Source of the DNA: Siphonodentalium dalli
Taxonomy: Eukaryota > Mollusca > Scaphopoda > Gadilida > Siphonodentaliidae
Direction: 5' to 3'
Length of the DNA stretch: 64,000 nt
Assembly (NCBI GenBank): GCA_032622095.1
Contig: CP136062.1
Coordinates: 228,050,578 to 228,114,577, forward strand
The translations under genes and the position numbers were made by a program. The notes below the pieces were generated by a model that was given only the letters and a program-made list of their open reading frames with translations, did not search any database and was not told where the DNA came from. The first letter of the stretch is position 1; each line of letters starts with the position of its first letter. Shown here piece by piece: positions 28,055 through 42,106 of the stretch.

Positions 28055-29143
28055 GAACTGGTAGTCCAAAATTGACTACATATATATTATCCCATAGATT
28101 TTCGACTACCAAACTGGCAGTTGGATTTTCTGGTCACTATGAATACCGAACACAACCAAACATAACCGAATACAACCGAAAACAAGTTAAAATAAGGGTT
28201 AAAAGACGGAAATATAAGAACTAAACTATGTAGGGGTGGGTGCGTATATATAAGCTAGTGATATGTGAAGTTTGATGCAATTTGGCCGATTAAAAGTTAC
28301 GTTAATGAAAGTTTTATGTTATTTCACGCCGAGTCAGAGTTCGGCGTGATGGTGGCTAACTCTATGAATACCGAACACAAGTCCAAATAAGGCGTATATA
28401 AGGGAAATATATGAAATAAAGTATATAATGATATGTGTGTATATGTAAGTTAGTGATATGTGAAGTTTGATGCAATTTGGCCGATTATAAGTTTAGTTAT
28501 TGATAGGTTTATGTACAATATTAGCTGTCGGCACGTAAACCAGAGTTCGGCAAGATGGCGGCTAACTCTATGAATACCGAACACAAGTTCAAATAAGGCG
28601 TATATAAGGGAAATATATGAAATAAAGTTTATAACGATGTGTATTTATATGTAAGTTAGTGATATGTGAAGTTTGATGCAATTTGGCCGATTAAAAGATT
28701 AGTTATTTGTAGTTTTATGTACAATATTAGCTGTCGGCACGTATAAACCAGAGTTCGGCGAAATGGCGGCTAACTATATGAATACCGAACACAAGTTCAA
28801 ATAAGGCGTATAAAAGGGAAATATATAAAATAAAGTTTTAATGATTTGTATGTATATGTAAGTTACTGGTATGTGAAGTCGGCACGCAAGCGAGAGTTTG
28901 GCGAGGATTTCTATGAATACCGAACACAAGTCGAAATAATAAGATGATTAAGACATCAGCGATATAGGTGATAATTAATTTCCCCTAACATATGGCACTG
29001 CGCAGTAGAGCCTTTGTTGCTGATTAATTACCGATGTGCGATCGCGGATTACTCTGGCTTATTGAAAAGATTTCAGGGATGTTTTGACAGTGATATTCAA
29101 GCAAGGTTTCACAGGTTTCATAAACCAAAATGGTTGAATAAAC

Positions 29144-29850
29144 AATATTGTGTTCGGCACCGATGACGAGATTGCTCTTGTGAATGCAATATCGACATGT
29201 TTTCCCGGGAGCACACACACATTGTGTACTCGCCATCTAAAGGAAAACCTCATGAGAAATCTGAGTAAAAAAGGGAGCCAAGAAACGGTAAGTAAACTAG
29301 TAGGTAAGATAGGCCTCCTCACAATAGATAGTAAGTTGATTTACGAGGAGGTCGAGGGCTGACATCATGACGAAAAATAAAAGTAAATATATTGAGTCTT
29401 TCATGCTCAGATTAAGGTCCAAAGTCTTCGAGGCTCATTACAAAATAATGTAATTCCCAAACTTTGGACCAATAATAATTGTGAGAGTTTAAACCATATT
29501 ATCAAATTGGAAAATGAGTGGAAAACGTTGCGACTGACCGACTTAACAGACAATTTATCAGACATAGTTGACGATCAATTACGGGACATTAGAGGTGCTT
29601 TACATGCATGGCTGTGGAAATTTTCAATTAGCGAATCAGGCAATATCATTAAAAATAAGCAATAGTACATGGGTAAATATGACAGCAGACCAACGTGACC
29701 GACGACTAATGACGTATGTTTATGCATGATACTGCTAAACTGCAAACATCAACGGACGGACGTCTGACTATTCCGAAAACAGCGGCTATTGCCAAAAAAC
29801 CGGGACAAGTAAAACGAATAAAATCTTGCAAAACAAAATCAGTTGGCAAT
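29144..29850 (+). pseudogene. MULE transposase, broken C-terminal half
   Basis: The first frame reads FGTDDEIALVNAISTCFPG, then THTLCTRHLKENLMRNL. This is the conserved D...A...FP.A.H..C..H segment of the MULE transposase domain. After a frame change, KLWTNNNCESLNHIIKL and LTDLTDNLSDIV, then LRDIRGAL follow, the usual downstream region. A last piece near 29,757 reads DGRLTIPKTAAIAKKPG. Stops and frameshifts separate the pieces and the N-terminal catalytic aspartates are not seen. It is inactive. Confidence 0.85.
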
Positions 29851-30326
29851 AAACGTCAAAGGGGCGCTTGAGAGTTGTTTAGGAATGAATGCTTTAATGC
29901 GGAGAAACAAATTAATGAGTAACATGCAATAACACATATACAATATTTTATATAGAATATGTACACGATGGAAATATAAAAATATATATAAGTTATATAA
30001 GTATATATATATGAATATTGGTATGCATTTAGGTAATTTTTTACAGAATATCATTATTTTCTTTTTTGTAGCATATCATTTATCTAACATGCATATGTTA
30101 AAAAAAAAGTCCCAAAGGGCAATGTCACACACTCCCCTTCAATGGGGTAATTGTGCCAAATCGGCCAAATTGCATCAAACTTCACGTATCACTAGCTTAC
30201 ATATAAATACACTATAAATCTTTATAAACTTTATTTCATATATTTCCCTAAAATACCCCTTATTTGAACTTGTGTTCGGTATTCAGCCGCCATCTTGCCG
30301 AACTCTGGTTTACGGGTATACAGACA

Positions 30327-30437
30327 TTTCCTCTCCGGACATTTCCCCACTTTCAAAAGCGGACATTTCCCCACCCGGACATTTCCCCACCGGACATTTC
30401 CCCACCCGGACATTTACCCACCGGACATTTCCCCACC
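30327..30437. repeat. CGGACATTTCCCCACC minisatellite
   Basis: About seven imperfect units of 16-17 bp, CGGACATTTCCCCACC, inside the MULE-type element. It is open in several frames by composition only. Confidence 0.85.
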
Positions 30438-30715
30438 CTGCTAATAAAATGCGGACATCAAAGAGTTTTTTCACTTATCAGTGAAGCCTGGTCAGTGAGG
30501 CCATCTCAAGCGATGTCAACTCAGCTGATGTAATGTTTTGACAGACATGAAAGCGTGTTTTGACAAACATGAAAGAGTGTTTTTAGGATAGTTTGGGACA
30601 TCAACGCAGTTGAAACAATGTTGTGACAATTATGATCACAGTGTGAATTCTAGTGAGTGAACTCTAGACAGCTATATAACCTTAGCAAAGTTATCATGGA
30701 ATCATATCTTCAATC

Positions 30716-30868
30716 ATGGAACTTATTAAGAAGAATCGTGGTGGTGATAAATTGTGTTTCGAAGGCCATGCATACACCAAAAAGAAAGTCAACAAATCGT
30801 CTATCAGATGGGAGTGTTCGCAGCGAAAAACTCTCTCATGCAAGGGGTGTGTCACAACTGATGACGAG
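30716..30868 (+). pseudogene. FLYWCH zinc-finger exon
   Basis: It reads MELIKKNRGGDKLCFEGHAY, then SIRWECSQRKTLSCKGCVTT and ends at a good GTAAGT donor. L.F.G..Y ... W.C ... C.G are FLYWCH landmarks. FLYWCH fingers often form the N-terminus of animal MULE transposases. Here the exon lies 0.9 kb downstream of the transposase tail, on the same strand, so the expected order is reversed. It may be left from a second copy or a rearrangement. Confidence 0.72.
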
Positions 30869-30899
30869 GTAAGTCTCAATTTCCTTGATGTTAATTCAT

Positions 30900-31165
30900 T
30901 TTCTGAAGAACAGATATAAAGAGCGTTCTTAGTTATTTATCCAATAATATGTGTGCAAATTTCTATGATGAACATTTAATTTGATATTTTTCTGAAGAAC
31001 AGATAATTTCTATAATGAACATTTAATTTGATATTTTTTCTGAAGAACAGACATAAAGAGCGTTCTTAGTTAATTACCGGTATCCAATAATATGTGTGCA
31101 AATTTCTAAAATGAACATTTAATTTGATATTTTTTCTGAAGAACAGATATAAAGAGCGTTCTTAG
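30900..31165. repeat. Three tandem copies around AAAGAGCGTTCTTAGTTA
   Basis: TTTTCTGAAGAACAGATATA, AAGAGCGTTCTTAGTTA, CCAATAATATGTGTGCAAAT and AATGAACATTTAATTTGATA repeat about three times, with truncated units between. AAAGAGCGTT is also an end word of other small elements in the window. Confidence 0.75.
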
Positions 31166-31624
31166 TTATACTTATATATATATACTTTATTTCATATATT
31201 TCCCTTATATACACCTTATTTGGACTTGTGTTCGGTATGCATAGAGTTAGCCGCCATCACACCAGACTCTGACTCGGCATGAAATTACATAAAACTTTCA
31301 TTAATGTAACTTTTAATCGGCCAAATTGCATCAAACTTCACATATCACTAGCTTATATATACACACACATCATTATAAACTTTATTTCATATATTTCCCT
31401 TATATACGCCTTATTTGGACTTGTGTTCGGTATTCATAGAGTTAGCCGCCATCACTGACTCGGCGTGAAATTACATAAAACTTTCATTAACGTAACTTTT
31501 AATCGGCCAAATTGCATCAAACTTCACATATCACTAGCTTACATATACACACACATCATTATAAACTTTTTTTAACCCTTATTTTAACTTGTTTTCAGTT
31601 GTGTTCAGTTATGTTGGATCGGTA

Positions 31625-31925
31625 TTCATCAGGTCAGGGAGAACCCAAAATCGATGTACTAAACCTCGATTTGTGTTAAAACCTCGATCGAGGTTCTACG
31701 AGATCATGTGACCACTGGTCAAAATATATACACCAATGATATAAGGGGAAACACTCTAGACCAAATATGATACTAATGGAAGTAATATAGTGTGGAGTAT
31801 TTCATCTTACATTATGGTAGTGAGTCCATGTAACTGATCACATGATCACAAAGAACCTCGATCGAGGTTTTTAATACAAATCGAGGTTTAGTACATCGAT
31901 TTTGGGTTCTCCCTGACCTGTTCAT
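31625..31925. mobile_element. MITE with 65-bp inverted ends inserted in the MULE right end
   Basis: TTCAT at 31,625-31,629 and 31,921-31,925 flanks an element starting CAGGTCAGGGAGAACCCAAA and ending with its complement. Inverted words ATCGATGTACTAAACCTCGA and AACCTCGATCGAGGTTCT extend the arms to about 65 bp. The insertion splits the MULE terminal word GGTATTCATAGTG. Confidence 0.85.
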
Positions 31926-31941
31926 AGTGTCCCGGATTTTC

Positions 31942-32629
31942 GAATTGAATCTTCTAAGGCCCCGGCGTAGTTTATTTTCAATATTATTATTGGAATTTGT
32001 TCATTTCATACTATAACTAGCTATGATGAGCGTTTATTTTGTCGATAGTAGTAGAAATTAGAATCGCCGCCCAAATATTGAAAGAACAACCGAAACTTAC
32101 ACCCAACAAACACAGTTTCACTTCACGCATCGGCATTGTCTCGATTTATGTAGAAATGTTCATTATTTCGTAGTCACTTCAACGCACAAAACGAGAATAT
32201 TAACAATAAAAGTATATTTGAATCAGTGTCATTGCGAAGTTTGTTATATTTGTTCTAAAAATTCCAAAACAAAGTCTCTTCCGCATTGATAAACATTCTC
32301 CATATTGACCTAAGTCACATGACAGTCACGTGACACATATAAGGACTACAAAGGAAAACAAGAAGCTCCAGGGATGACGTCCGTCTAAATCGTTACGATA
32401 TCTTAAAGGTACACATTCCTTTTCGGTGGTCCCCGTGACATCAGATTTCAACAACAACAACAACATTTCTTCAAAAGATGTTTTACTATCAGGATCGATT
32501 AATTGCCAAAAGCTAATGCGAGCCACTGTCAATCCTACAGTATTATTTTTTTTTCCAAAACGTGTTATACATGTATATCAACATTTTGTTCGACGCAATT
32601 TGGTATCGAGAGTAGGCCTACAGGTATCT
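31942..32629. other. No gene recognised
   Basis: Mixed sequence with CAACAACAACAACA near 32,445 and no frame with recognisable motifs. Confidence 0.4.
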
Positions 32630-32708
32630 GGAGAAGTCGGCCCCGCGCGAAGTCGGCCCCATACGAAGACGGCCCCGCGCGAAGTCGGCCCCAGAGAAGT
32701 CGGCCCCA
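32630..32708 (+). repeat. Outer inverted repeat A, left copy
   Basis: GGAGAAGTCGGCCCCGCGCG, then CCATACGAAGACGGCCCC and CCCAGAGAAGTCGGCCCCAT are mirrored at 42,107-42,186 with about one mismatch. The arm itself is built of GAAGTCGGCCCC direct repeats. It forms the outermost pair of a nested symmetric structure. Confidence 0.85.
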
Positions 32709-33334
32709 TTAATTAGAAGAGATTAAATCGGCTTAATTTTATTGATATAGTGTTTATTTAGGCAAATTATGAGGTCCCCAACTTAATTTGATTGAGTTAG
32801 TGTCGTGTTTGTGTAGGCTAATTGTGAAGTCCGCAGTGTTTTCTTAGTTGTAATAACAAAATGAACTTCACTTATGGACAGTCACTGACAGCGGCTAGCT
32901 CAGTTATAAAAACAATGATGGTTGCCGACAGACAATGAAAGAAAACGCTAAGTACTGTTGATTGCTGCTTAGCGAACGAAGCCATTAGCTCATTATTCTC
33001 ATTTCGGATTTATAGACGTATATAAGGTTAGCCCAGCTATCCGATTTTCAAGTCAGAAATCAACTACTCACCACGAAAAAGACAAAGTCCATCCTACAAC
33101 TAGACGCAACAGACATACCCATATAACCTCGACAGCACATGACGACTCCACCACGCTTCCGCCGCTTTGCCTCCAACCACAGTAACCACGACAGCCACAA
33201 GATCGATCCCCATCGAAAAATCAAGAAAGGGTGAAGGGACTTGCACACTGCAGTCCGACCACCCTACCCGGCCTTCGGCCGGAAACGACTCAACAACCGA
33301 TTTTCATACATTCCTCAATTCAGCACAATGCCTG
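32709..33334. other. Between inverted repeats A and B, no gene recognised
   Basis: Short frames on both strands have no family signature. I see nothing repeated on the right side at the matching place. Confidence 0.4.
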
Positions 33335-33402
33335 TAGTCCAAGTCTTCTTGTACTAAAACCAGCTAAGATATTGGGATGGCGATGCTGGTGTTTAGTCCA
33401 AG
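33335..33402 (+). repeat. Inverted repeat B, left copy
   Basis: TAGTCCAAGTCTTCTTGTAC, CCAGCTAAGATATTGGGATG and CGATGCTGGTGTTTAGTCC are mirrored without obvious mismatch at 41,711-41,778. It is open in frame by chance on both sides. Confidence 0.85.
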
Positions 33403-35189
33403 ACCACCCTATATGCTCGCTTATGACACGGCTTAAGCGTTAGTGACCCGCTCAAATAAAACCACAATTATATGAAATAAAATATAACAATTACGACAAT
33501 AAACGGATATTTTCCGCAGAAGACATGCTATTTTATCTGAAACCCACATCAGTTGTGAATTTAAAACGGTAATTTAATGCGAAAAGAGACATTTACCTCA
33601 ATGTTTACAATTTTTTTAAAGTATGCGAACTCGGTTGACCTCGCGAACTGTGTTCGGCATTTTCCGTTGAAAATATTCCGTAGATTTTGGACAACAACGC
33701 AAATTACGATGAATTCTCCATTGTAATCGTAATTATGTGTGTCAATAAATAAAATAATAAATAGATTAATTAAACATTGGAGATATAAATGTAATACACT
33801 AAATAAATGAACCTTAAGTTTGAAAAGTCCCACTAAAACGGAAGAACTATATTTCGAAACTGTGTGATTCGGTTCTCCGATTATTTTATCAACACAGATG
33901 TCAAAATGCACATCACACGCATGGCAAGTCAGACACAAGAGTTCTAATTTGCTCCAATTTTGACAAGTTGCTTGCGATAATTGTCAACAAAACTACCGTT
34001 CTGATCCTCCATTATGTCATTAAGTTTTTAGTGCGGGAATTGTTCTGAAAGCACATAGAAAACTGGACTTTCGGGCGATCGGTTTTCGCCATTTTTGTTC
34101 GGAAAACCCGCGCTATATATAGAAACGGAAAGTAGAATTATCCGGTACGTATAAAAGCCGAACACAACCGAACACAACCGAACATAACCGAACACAAGTC
34201 CAAATAATGGGAAATGTAACGAATAAAGTTGATAGGCATGTGTATTCATGTTCACACTATTACTATACGAAGTTTGGTGGAGTTCGGGCCAATAATAAGT
34301 GTTTTATTCGATATTTTGTAAAACGCGTTCTGTGTTCGGCATAGAAAAGCCGAACACAAATTTAACTTCTGTCGTGGATTAGTCTAACGGTTGTCTAGCT
34401 AGGTGATAATTAATATCTGTAACTACCACCATCGCCTATCTTACTATATAAATAAAGCCATCTGTTTAAATTTTACATTTAATCAACACCTGTTGATTAA
34501 AGGCGCCTACTGTTGACTAAACTTCGCAGAGTGGATTAAACATTCTTCATACAATTTGAACGGAAAAGTGTTTATCCATAGCATTGTAAAAATCGTGGCA
34601 TAAACACAGTGGATTAAAACTTTCTCCATATACAATTTGAACGGAAAAGTGTTTATCCTTCGCATTTTGTTTCTGAATAAAAATGTTTCTGAAGCATTAG
34701 TTGAATAATTATTATCTGGCTAATTAAGTCATCGTGTTTTGATTGGACGTATATATTTCTAACGGTCATCTCTGCGTTCTGATTGGTCAAATAGTAATGT
34801 CGGGTTTTATGCAGAAGAAATTAAGAAATAATTTATTTGGTTTTGTGATTATTTGCATTAATTCTAATTCTAATTAACAAATTATAGCGTTCTGTATTGC
34901 TATATTACTACCACAATTGTAATACTTGACTTGGGCTGTGTAAACATTTTAATAAAATATATATAGCCTCAATAAAAATAAATCGAGAATACTAATTAAG
35001 TATACTCATAAATAATTCACAACAATAAATTAATTATTTAAAGTTTCCATCGGATCGGTAATATCTGTCCACGAAGCCAGTGAGATAATCCTCTTACTTT
35101 CCGGATCAGAAATCACGTAATTTTAGTTAGGCTTCATCCTCAAAGTATCACTAAGCAAACAAACCCATCAGATTTCGGAAATTAATTAT

Positions 35190-38525
<3,336 letters not shown>

Positions 38526-38910
38526 TAAAAAATATATGCAAAGTAACATCTAACATGATCATTTAGTGGTATCAATCCATTTTATCAGTCAATAAATCAT
38601 GTAGACCTACTATATATTGCATTACTGCGGGGACCTACGCGAATTGAGTGACCTACGGAGAGCTACGCAAATCTAGGGACCTACTGCATAACGCAGTACC
38701 CCATATGGTCACTAAGCCGAAAGGCTTTAATTGTTGTTGGTGGCGGTCTCTCACCTATTGTAGTTCAGTGTTTTGAAAGACAACGATTGTAAGAACAACA
38801 GTTGAGTGACAAGAAAGTGAGTTCATGGTGTCATATCCGAGAAGTTCTATATAAGAATGTGGTATGATATTATTTGGCATTCTGATCACAGATCTGAACA
38901 TTCTACAATG

Positions 38911-39909
38911 TCTGATTCCAAATTGATTTACCCATGTGGTGTTTGTTCACAGGAATGTCACGAGATACGCAGCATCGGCTGAGATCTGTGTGACCGATGG
39001 TTTCACCTAGAGTGTCAGCAATTGAAAATCAGTGACTTTAATTTTTTTTACTAAGTCATCACTTAGCTACTTTTGCACACTGTGTATGTACATTCGTGAT
39101 TCTTTTGACTGGGATGCCGCTCATCTGCGTCTGATGGCGGGGGCAAACAATGGATCTGTTCTCAATGACGCAAAGAGAGAACAGATTTTCTTGCGTCTTG
39201 AAAATCGGAATGTCTTGTGCCTTCCGTTCAGACATATCATCCAATGAGTTCTCTCTCTGTTGATTCGTATTCTAAAAAGTTGTTGGGTAATCAGTGGAAG
39301 GGTTCTGTCCCTATTGATGTCGAAGGTAATGGCAATTGTTTGTTCAATTCAGTATCAGTTGGTTTGTTTGGCGACGAGTCTCATGTAACAGAGTTACGAG
39401 TTAGGACATGCATAGAGTTATCAATCAACAGGTCATTTTATAGTACATTTCACAAAGGTTCGAATCTTGGTTTGGTCAGCCCGCCACTGGATGAGGACAT
39501 CTTGTCATGCGCCCAGGCTGGAGGAGGTTCTAGAGCATACTCCTCAGCCTGGACCATGCATGGTGTCGCATCAGTGGTATGTCGGTCAATAAAATCTGTC
39601 TATCCCACAAAGAATGGACCCGGGGATCATTGTATCGGAATCTTAAACACGGTATTCAATCCTCGGGTTCGTTATAAACGTGTGGACTCAATTTCAATTC
39701 TGTGGTCTGGCAATGGTGCCTCCAAAGTTCACTGGATTCCGAATCATTTCGTTCCACTTCTCCCAACCATGGCTCTTCCGTCGCTGATTCAAGTTTTTTC
39801 ATCTGATTCCGAGTCAGAAAGCCGAGATGATGACTGTCCAGTTCGAAGTTATGCATCTGTCGTTTTATATTGTGCTTTATATTTTGTGCTTCACATATTT
39901 ATGTTTTAA
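38911..39909 (+). pseudogene. Broken PHD finger + OTU-like cysteine protease gene (vertnin-like)
   Basis: From ATG at 38,911 the frame reads LIYPCGVCSQEC, then DLCDRWFHLECQQL after a TGA, then in another frame SYFCTLCMYIRDSFDWDAA. Together these give a C4HC3 PHD finger. After another frame change the 230-codon frame from 39,217 reads PIDVEGNGNCLFNSVSVGLF, then ELRVRTCIELSIN, VASVVCRSIKSVYP and KVHWIPNHFVPLLP. GNGNC(L)F with a distal HF is the layout of OTU-family cysteine proteases, and the middle words resemble vertnin-like proteins. One internal stop and two frame changes make it a pseudogene. PHD fingers bind histone tails and OTU proteases remove ubiquitin; a role in the element is not shown. 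Confidence 0.78.
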
Positions 39910-40150
39910 GCTACGTGTGTTTTATACTCCTGACTCATGCATTGTATATAAGTGTATATAATATATTGTATAGTACATTTTTATGTTTTACGTACGCTAC
40001 ATGTGTTTTATACCACTGACTCATGTATTGTATATAAGTGTATATAATATATTATATAGCACATTTTTATGTTTTACGCTACATGTGTTTTATACAACTG
40101 ACTCATGCATTGTATATAAGTATATATAGTATATTGTATAGTATATTGTA
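39899..40150. repeat. Three tandem units of about 85 bp
   Basis: ATTTTTATGTTTTACG, CTACATGTGTTTTATAC, CTGACTCATGCATTGTATAT and AAGTGTATATAATATATT repeat three times just after the OTU frame. AT-rich and non-coding. Confidence 0.85.
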
Positions 40151-41710
40151 CATTGAACATATACTATGATTGACATCAATTCCACCAGAATTCCTTGCAC
40201 CACCACCAAGAGATGTTATGTCGGCAACTATAACACGACGTAGAATCGCCAGATCTATAACAAACATATGAAGATATCGCCTGATTGGATGTTGGCCAGA
40301 CACATACATGTCCTGGTGTTACGACGAAGAACCTAATAACGGTCTGTCTGTGTATAAACATGCGTGACGAAAACTAATATCAGTGTCGTCATACAGCTAT
40401 CAGAAATTGCTGCAGCATGTTAATCATTATATCTATGAACCAGGACATGTCGACACGATGTCACGAATAACAACTGTAAATCCAAATAACAGGCATGGTG
40501 ATCCAAAACAAAAAAACAGAGATGGTGATCGGTGAAAACAAAAGAGCTAGTCGGTGGTCATGAATAGAGAAGAGTACATTAACAAAGATCTATGTTTTGC
40601 ATATATATAATTTTACAATGTTTACTTATGATTGCAATAAACTATTTGAAAATTATTTGTTTTGTGGTTTGTATTATACTCTCCGAACCATTTCCGCATG
40701 AGTATCTTAACTCAGCAACCGATTTACTACTTCTTAGAAGTCCGGGCGTGCTGATATGTTTCCATTTGTCCACTATTATCCATCTAAACTTCCATATTGT
40801 ACGAATGGACTTGTAATAATAACGGGGGGGGGGGGTAACATTTTAGTGAGAATGCAGACGAAAATGGACAACACGTTTTTCTCGCGAATAAAGCCTGCCA
40901 AATCCCATCTGGCAGATATTAATTATCACCTATCAGCGGATAAACTAATCCATGAGACAGAAATTTGTGTTCGGCTTTTCTATGCCGAACACAAACGCGT
41001 TGTACAAAACATCTAACAAAACACTCATTATTGAACCACCAAACTTCGTATAGTAATAGTTTGAACGTGAATACATATGCCTATCAACTTTACAAGGTGG
41101 TCGTATATTTAGTAGACTGTATATAGAGTTATATATCTCAAACGCCAGCTAACGCCACATCTATGTGTTAATTAATTAACGGTGACTGAGTGTCGAACTA
41201 TAAGCTTGTGTTCGGCTTTTCTATGCCGAACACTAAACGCGTTTTACAAAATATCGAATAAAACACTTATTATTGGCCAAAACTCCACCAAACTTCGTAT
41301 AGTAATAGTGTGAACATGAATACACATGCCTATGAACTTTATTTGTGAAATTTCCCATTATTTGGACTTGTGTTCGGTTATGTTCGGTTGTGTTCGGCTT
41401 TTATGAGCTCCCTAATTCCCAGAACAAACAGCGGATTATGCCGAACTTATTCGGACCACTTCGGCTTTCGGTTAAAACGTAAACAAACAGAGAAACAAAT
41501 CGATGTTTGTGGCAATCAACCGGAATATTCTATGTGTAATTTAACATTAAAGTTAGATTAGTATACACCATTGTGACCATAAGATGTAAGCCTTTCCGAT
41601 GTATATAGCATCATGTATTGATTTGCTAGGTAAATCGAGTAAAATACACCACAAATTCCCGCCACAGATCGTGGGCGTAACTCGTGTGATAGGATTGGTA
41701 TACAAGCGGG

Positions 41711-41778
41711 CTTGGACTAAACACCAGCATCGCCATCCCAATATCTTAGCTGGTTTTAGTACAAGAAGACTTGGACTA
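41711..41778 (-). repeat. Inverted repeat B, right copy
   Basis: Mirror of 33,335-33,402 (CTTGGACTAAACACCAGCAT, CGCCATCCCAATATCTTAGC). It ends directly at the ATG of a PHD half-finger exon. Confidence 0.85.
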
Positions 41779-41881
41779 TGCCTGTTGACTGCGTTTATTG
41801 CAAATCTCTTGTCGGAGAATAACAAAGAGTCCATAGAATGCGACAGATGTTCTCGCTGGACTCATCGAATATGTAACACAG
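41777..41881 (+). pseudogene. PHD half-finger exon with one frameshift
   Basis: ATG at 41,777 reads MPVDCVYCKSLVGE and a stop. One base over, NKESIECDRCSRWTHRICNT continues up to a GTAAGT donor at 41,882. Together they give CxxC ... CxxC...HxxC, the first six ligands of a PHD finger. The start resembles the PHD of the gene at 38,911 in spacing but not in sequence. The continuation after the donor was not found. Confidence 0.6.
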
Positions 41882-42106
41882 GTAAGTGATTTAAAATTTT
41901 AATTTTGATAAAACTTTCCATTTTTTCTCAAGCATATGAACATTAATTTTTCAATATTTTCTCAAGTATATGAGAATATACTTAAATCTTGTATATAGTA
42001 ATATCGCCTCTATAATATATGTATTGCCATTATATTATCAGTTTCATATTTCATTTCATATCATAAAATAAATAAAGATTGATTTTAAACAATAGTTCTG
42101 TTATAA

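Follow-up and report, generated by a model that had tools for sequence, protein, structure and literature searches.

Why should an element built like a transposon carry a protease-like gene between its arms, and no transposase? The question is raised by a stretch of 64,000 nucleotides from the scaphopod mollusc Siphonodentalium dalli (GenBank assembly GCA_032622095.1, contig CP136062.1; C2:228050578-228114577 in the genome assembly, which comprises 2.23 Gb in nine contigs), termed the window in what follows. The genome is that of an animal by its Wnt family as well, with 41 matches over the cut-off against none in 14 control genomes. The window holds two Mutator-like elements (MULEs): element 1, with a remnant of a MULE transposase, and element 2, with a PHD finger and an OTU (ovarian tumour) protease-like domain. 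A first-pass annotation, made from the sequence alone, took the PHD-OTU gene to be cargo. Fuller copies elsewhere in the genome overturn that point, having PHD-OTU at the N-terminus of the transposase. We consider it very probable that both elements are decayed copies with internal deletions, belonging to an animal MULE lineage whose fullest copies encode a single PHD-OTU-MULE transposase, with compound terminal inverted repeats (TIRs) and 8-bp target duplications.

The transposase in fuller copies

The genome was searched with the arm (best 40 of 1,295 candidates scored), with the OTU stretch (best 40 of 234 candidates scored, giving 54 matches), with a C-terminal query of 477 aa (at least 94 matches) and with a PHD-OTU query of 325 aa (at least 130 matches). 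Copies and loci in the genome are given L-numbers. Family A is the family of element 2 and includes L052; family B comprises L037/L054, L038/L053 and L043/L056; family C is L057 and family D is L059. The reference transposase protein is termed P0001, its residues numbered as in the frame of L052.

Among the matches listed, those to the arms and those to the OTU stretch overlap at 12 places. The PHD-OTU query starts 476-549 bases inside the arm at 9 of the 12; the distance is larger at C3:51.6 Mb (2.0 kb), at C6:132.9 Mb (2.8 kb) and in the window (4.8 kb). Genome copies thus place the OTU gene inside the repeat borders, where the first-pass annotation had put it.

Architecture, borders, duplications and catalytic residues can be read directly from these copies. 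L052 (C5:248310000-248316050) has a single frame of 1,076 aa that spans a PHD finger (residues 39-88), an OTU-like domain (Cys173, His309) and a MULE DDE domain (D764, D834, E946); L051 differs little, its frame being broken near residues 776-820. L057 likewise has a single frame, of 1,008 aa, with PHD, OTU and MULE parts (54% identity over 1,049 positions), lying between inverted repeats with GAAAATGC duplicated on either side. L052 and L057 are full copies with a MULE transposase and an OTU domain together, a combination that had been raised at the outset. L059 is open for 934 aa, though its frame lacks a piece following the catalytic E, and has GCTAATTT duplicated on either side, and L058 is open for 961 aa and ends before the C-terminus. 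The same domain parts are found in the family B copies, with frame breaks or losses, and in L050/L055, with many stops. The single frames of the full copies make PHD-OTU the N-terminal portion of the transposase; the OTU protease-like domain belongs to the jumping machinery and is no passenger.

From the N-terminal side, the fullest copies encode a Pygopus-like PHD finger and an OTU-type cysteine protease domain, followed by a variable linker, a probable DNA-binding region and the MULE DDE domain. Besides D764, D834 and E946, the MULE catalytic residues of P0001 include C855/H858, in a CxxH arrangement; a C..H signature of this kind is a mark of MULEs. Both Ds are conserved in 7 of 7 alignment rows and the E in all 6 rows covering its position. 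For L052 the Pfam model Transposase_mut scores 30.6 bits (cut-off 21) and MULE 26.4, just under its cut-off of 27.6; at E<=0.1 both are matched in 7 of 7 rows. DDE domain with D/D/E and CxxH, long TIRs and 8-bp duplications, which fall in the superfamily's range of 8-11 bp, all place the lineage in the Mutator/MULE superfamily.

For the N-terminal domains, L059 scores over the Pfam cut-offs for PHD (30.5 bits; cut-off 24) and OTU (29.6 bits; cut-off 23.3), and the OTU score is below 23.3 in families A and C. All 7 rows have the OTU Cys, and all 6 that cover the His have it too; the Cys motif reads NGSC in family C and NGNC or DGNC elsewhere. The C4HC3 zinc ligands of the PHD finger were read by eye in the alignment, and its best match among solved structures is the Pygopus PHD (E 2.8e-7). 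Structure prediction of PHD-OTU gave no confident fold (mean pLDDT 28.9).

Between families A and B, dN/dS is 0.04 (NG86) or 0.10 (YN00) for PHD, 0.14 (NG86) or 0.09 (YN00) for OTU and 0.39 (NG86 only) for the linker. PHD and OTU therefore look purified between these families, at a high dS of 1.3-3.2; the MULE part has a dN of 0.29 and no usable dS. In the near-identical pair L057 and L058, with 17 changed codons and 6 silent ones, constraint is absent, as expected of copies after insertion.

Perfect 8-bp duplications flank nine insertions: 6 of the 9 family-A copies with both ends visible (L028, L030, L031, L039, L051 and L052), together with L057, L059 and element 1. Imperfect ones are found in family A at L004 (6 of 8 bases) and L029 (3 of 8). 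In 6 of the 9 perfect insertions neither side allows a ninth duplicated base; L031, L039 and L051 allow one if a terminal base is shared. The duplications that the first-pass annotation had proposed to look for were thus found at these copies, the one at element 2 being eroded.

Some family-A copies keep only the C-terminal end. The match to P0001 begins directly after the arm, without PHD-OTU, at residue 852 in L003, L006, L007 and L020 and at 912 in L002 and L004; among these six, both ends are visible only in L004. Since the breakpoints are common to several copies, such deletion copies seem to have multiplied in trans.

The two elements of the window

Element 2 occupies 34143-41412 (7,270 bp including nested inserts); limits of 34,149-41,402 had been proposed earlier, and the ends of genome copies together with empty sites move them outward. 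Its left TIR arm is at 34143-34419 (forward strand), and its right arm, at 40913-41412 (reverse strand), is made of two inverted-repeat sub-units. The arms pair over 197 nt with 95% complementarity (34168-34364 / 41201-41397). Genome copies with an end in view read approximately CGGTACGTATAAAAGCC at one end and GGGAGCTCATAAAAGCC at the other.

The element sits in a high-copy host repeat with 71-bp inverted ends, which it splits into 33335-34142 and 41413-41778. The bases next to it, GAATTATC on the left (34135-34142) and TAATTCCC on the right (41413-41420), match in 5 of 8 positions. Five other copies of the host repeat have the site empty, with a single copy of GAATTCCC in 4 of the 5 and of TAATTCCC in the other. 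Because the empty sites are single-copy, GAATTATC and TAATTCCC are most plausibly duplicates that have eroded, and element 2 has exact borders; insertion without a target duplication, which had been entertained, was set aside on the same evidence. The 288-bp right-hand piece of the host repeat gave 1,960 candidates, of which the best 40 are at 99-100% identity, and five copies among the matches listed cluster on C5 (140.026-140.055 Mb). Two further candidates for parts of element 2 were rejected: the outer 71-bp inverted repeat (33335-33405 / 41708-41778) is the host repeat's ends, which have copies of their own elsewhere, and a PHD half-exon at about 41,780-41,889 belongs to another dispersed repeat. 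This half-exon (41780-41889) scores 20.6 bits in Pfam and is followed by a GT.

Within element 2 the PHD-OTU part of the transposase gene lies at 38821-39864 on the forward strand, matching P0001 residues 1-348 at 81% identity, with stops. The first-pass annotation had called the gene broken; this describes the PHD part, with its stops and frame shift, and not the OTU part, around which 235 aa are open in one frame (39202-39909, forward strand; Cys codon 39337-39339, His codon 39745-39747). An internal-deletion junction follows at 39863-39865, where one flanking match runs to 39865 and the next begins at 39863, a 3-base overlap. The deletion took the linker and the MULE transposase, about 2.9 kb in L052, and brought the PHD-OTU part against the 3' non-coding tandem repeat (39863-40147, forward strand, units of 82-86 bp).

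A Helitron-like insert foreign to element 2 is nested at 35190-38525, starting with TC and ending with CTAG between A and T; L022 provides its empty site. It is non-autonomous, with a long CTGT microsatellite and a hairpin-like stretch before the CTAG.

Element 1 (28131-31933), with ends TGGTCACTATGAATACCGA and GGGACACTATGAA, is an internally deleted MULE of a sister family. Its limits stand as first drawn, with identical 8-bp copies of GGATTTTC on the left (28123-28130) and on the right (31934-31941). The transposase remnant that had been recognised in it was confirmed at 29138-29862 (forward strand; D at 29162, E at 29483): it matches P0001 residues 830-1074 only, in three pieces (68% identity over 159, 35% over 134 and 71% over 45 positions), and PHD-OTU is absent. 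A less-deleted relative, L062, is identical in DNA to element-1 positions 4-1020 at 89% and 1015-1733 at 91%; it has PHD (61%), OTU (59%) and DNA-binding and MULE parts (66-75%), all with broken frames.

Two foreign repeats lie in element 1. A FLYWCH-coding fragment (30306-31169) is a piece of a separate high-copy repeat, the best 40 of its 508 candidates having 92-100% identity, and was rejected as the element's own DNA-binding domain. A small palindromic repeat (31630-31920; inverted arms of 52 bp, 98%) is inserted in the right arm.

That the two elements have ends and inner words in common, as first claimed, holds in part. GAACACAAGTCCAAATAA occurs in both (28373 and 34190; reversed at 31216, 31411 and 41358), as does AGGTGATAATTAAT (28966 and 34401; reversed at 40918); GAACACAACCGAACATAACC is exact in element 2 only (34170; reversed at 41376), element 1 having the near variant GAACACAACCAAACATAACC. 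The similarity goes beyond CCGAACA words, as the claim implied, for the arm interiors outside these words reach an alignment score of 42, whereas 300 shuffles average 17.8 (sd 2.9) and do not exceed 28. Common mobilisation of the two, inferred at first from these ends, is supported, for they belong to sister families whose arms are related, which both duplicate 8 bp of target and which encode transposases of one kind.

One design, shortened by opposite internal deletions, gave rise to elements 1 and 2, and for that reason the window resembles a cargo element beside a transposase element. Separate deletions left element 2 with the PHD-OTU end and element 1 with a C-terminal transposase piece, after which both would be mobile only in trans.

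Spread in the genome and a deep family

To assess linkage, all 94 MULE matches were compared with the 51 strongest of the 130 PHD/OTU matches. A same-strand MULE match lies within 6 kb downstream of 20 of these 51, where by our own arithmetic uniform placement would give about 0.007 such pairs, and one of these OTU matches lies upstream of 25 of the 94 MULE matches. These counts are lower bounds, because only the best candidates were scored; the remaining unpaired matches are probably due in part to deletion copies.

A deep group (L060, L061) has MULE parts about 40-42% identical to P0001. L077, which on C1 lies 3.3 kb upstream of the MULE stretch, scores 38.9 bits for OTU (cut-off 23.3), and the OTU-end motif (N/D)HFVPL is found in the intervening open stretch on both C1 and C4. 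The stretch read gave no PHD match, nor did an OTU core turn up upstream of MULE on C4. The OTU and MULE pieces of this family are apparently exons of one intron-split gene. The OTU-MULE fusion seems to predate the split of these families, judging from order and similarity rather than from a tree.

Rival readings, known relatives and meaning

To the reading of PHD-OTU as a host gene captured as MULE cargo, in Pack-MULE style, we give almost no credence. It has in its favour the window, with an OTU gene between arms that hold no transposase, and the capture of gene fragments by plant MULEs (PMC6431247). It does not explain why families A, C and D all have the same order in a single frame, why OTU is also found in family B, in the family of element 1 (L062) and in the deep family, or why dN/dS between families A and B looks purifying. 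Another reading, that the PHD-OTU-only deletion copies are not debris and are kept as regulators, dominant-negative or ubiquitin-editing, draws on the 5 of 9 two-ended family-A copies (window, L029, L030, L031, L039) in which the N-terminal part alone is matched. We find it very unlikely, since stops interrupt the window copy, L031 and L039, the frame changes in L029, L004 keeps a C-terminal piece only and L028 keeps parts of both ends. Internal deletion is moreover common among DNA transposons.

The OTU-like domain could also be OTU in structure and dead as an enzyme, serving as a binding module. Families A and C, with their weak Pfam scores, and the NGSC of family C, where other families have NGNC or DGNC, point that way, whereas Cys and His are conserved in every row that covers them; we hold a dead enzyme to be unlikely, though less so than either cargo or regulators.

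Some parts of this design are already known: OTU in a MULE (MuDR-6_HM) and PHD in Rehavkus. The present lineage unites all three; among the open-access papers listed, no description of PHD, OTU and MULE in one transposase was found, but Repbase may hold such entries. MuDR-6_HM, a Hydra MULE of group 14, is listed in Table 1 of PMC6446971 with 'Ovarian Tumour Gene' and one open reading frame. Like the present lineage it is an animal MULE with OTU; it is set apart by description, its entry giving no zinc finger or TIR where the present lineage has PHD and long TIRs (PMC6446971). Rehavkus shares a PHD finger in the transposase, a minisatellite before the 3' TIR, long TIRs and animal hosts (PMC6446971). 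A minisatellite of this type is the repeat of element 2 noted above, also present in L052. By description Rehavkus differs in having 9-bp duplications and no OTU listed, against 8 bp and OTU here (PMC6446971). Phantom elements, likewise animal MULEs, duplicate 8-10 bp; compound ends of a fold-back-like type occur in some, and a minisatellite after the open reading frame in some. They are listed with FLYWCH, SWIM or no finger, in contrast to PHD-OTU (PMC3169594, PMC6446971). The finger of the present lineage is PHD, the FLYWCH in element 1 being foreign. Muta1, another animal MULE, made duplications of 8 or 9 bp in yeast (PMC5225508). The accessible part of PMC13359780 mentions neither OTU, PHD nor FLYWCH.

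Outside these, Ginger1 transposases carry OTU or Ulp1, with PHD in one family; they differ in a Gypsy-integrase-like DDE and a C-terminal protease, where the present lineage has a MULE DDE and OTU toward the N-terminus (PMC2836005). Mutator transposons with Ulp1-like proteases, in plants, hydra and lancelet, also encode a protease for ubiquitin-like proteins (PMC2836005), of the Ulp1 kind where the present lineage has OTU. For OTU and Ulp1 domains the Ginger paper proposes a part in transposition, for example via repair factors (PMC2836005).

Given the TIRs, the 8-bp duplications and the DDE domain, cut-and-paste transposition in the usual MULE way is likely. Near the insertion site the PHD finger may read histone tails. 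Substrates of the OTU domain may be the transposase itself or proteins of chromatin or repair, from which it would remove ubiquitin.

Ubiquitin and SUMO proteases recur in unrelated transposons (Ginger1, Helentrons, Mutator with Ulp1, Hydra MuDR-6), and why they do so is the question. Here the role of the protease becomes testable, one Cys against the DDE, because the domains are fused with their residues conserved, a histone-reader-like finger is adjacent, and ends and duplications are intact. More tentatively, and with considerable doubt, we suggest a deep animal MULE clade in which an in-transposase deubiquitinase predates the family split, with a chromatin reader in most lineages and amplified PHD-OTU-only copies acting in trans. 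If so, the transposase would edit ubiquitin at the chromatin that the same transposase reads and cuts.

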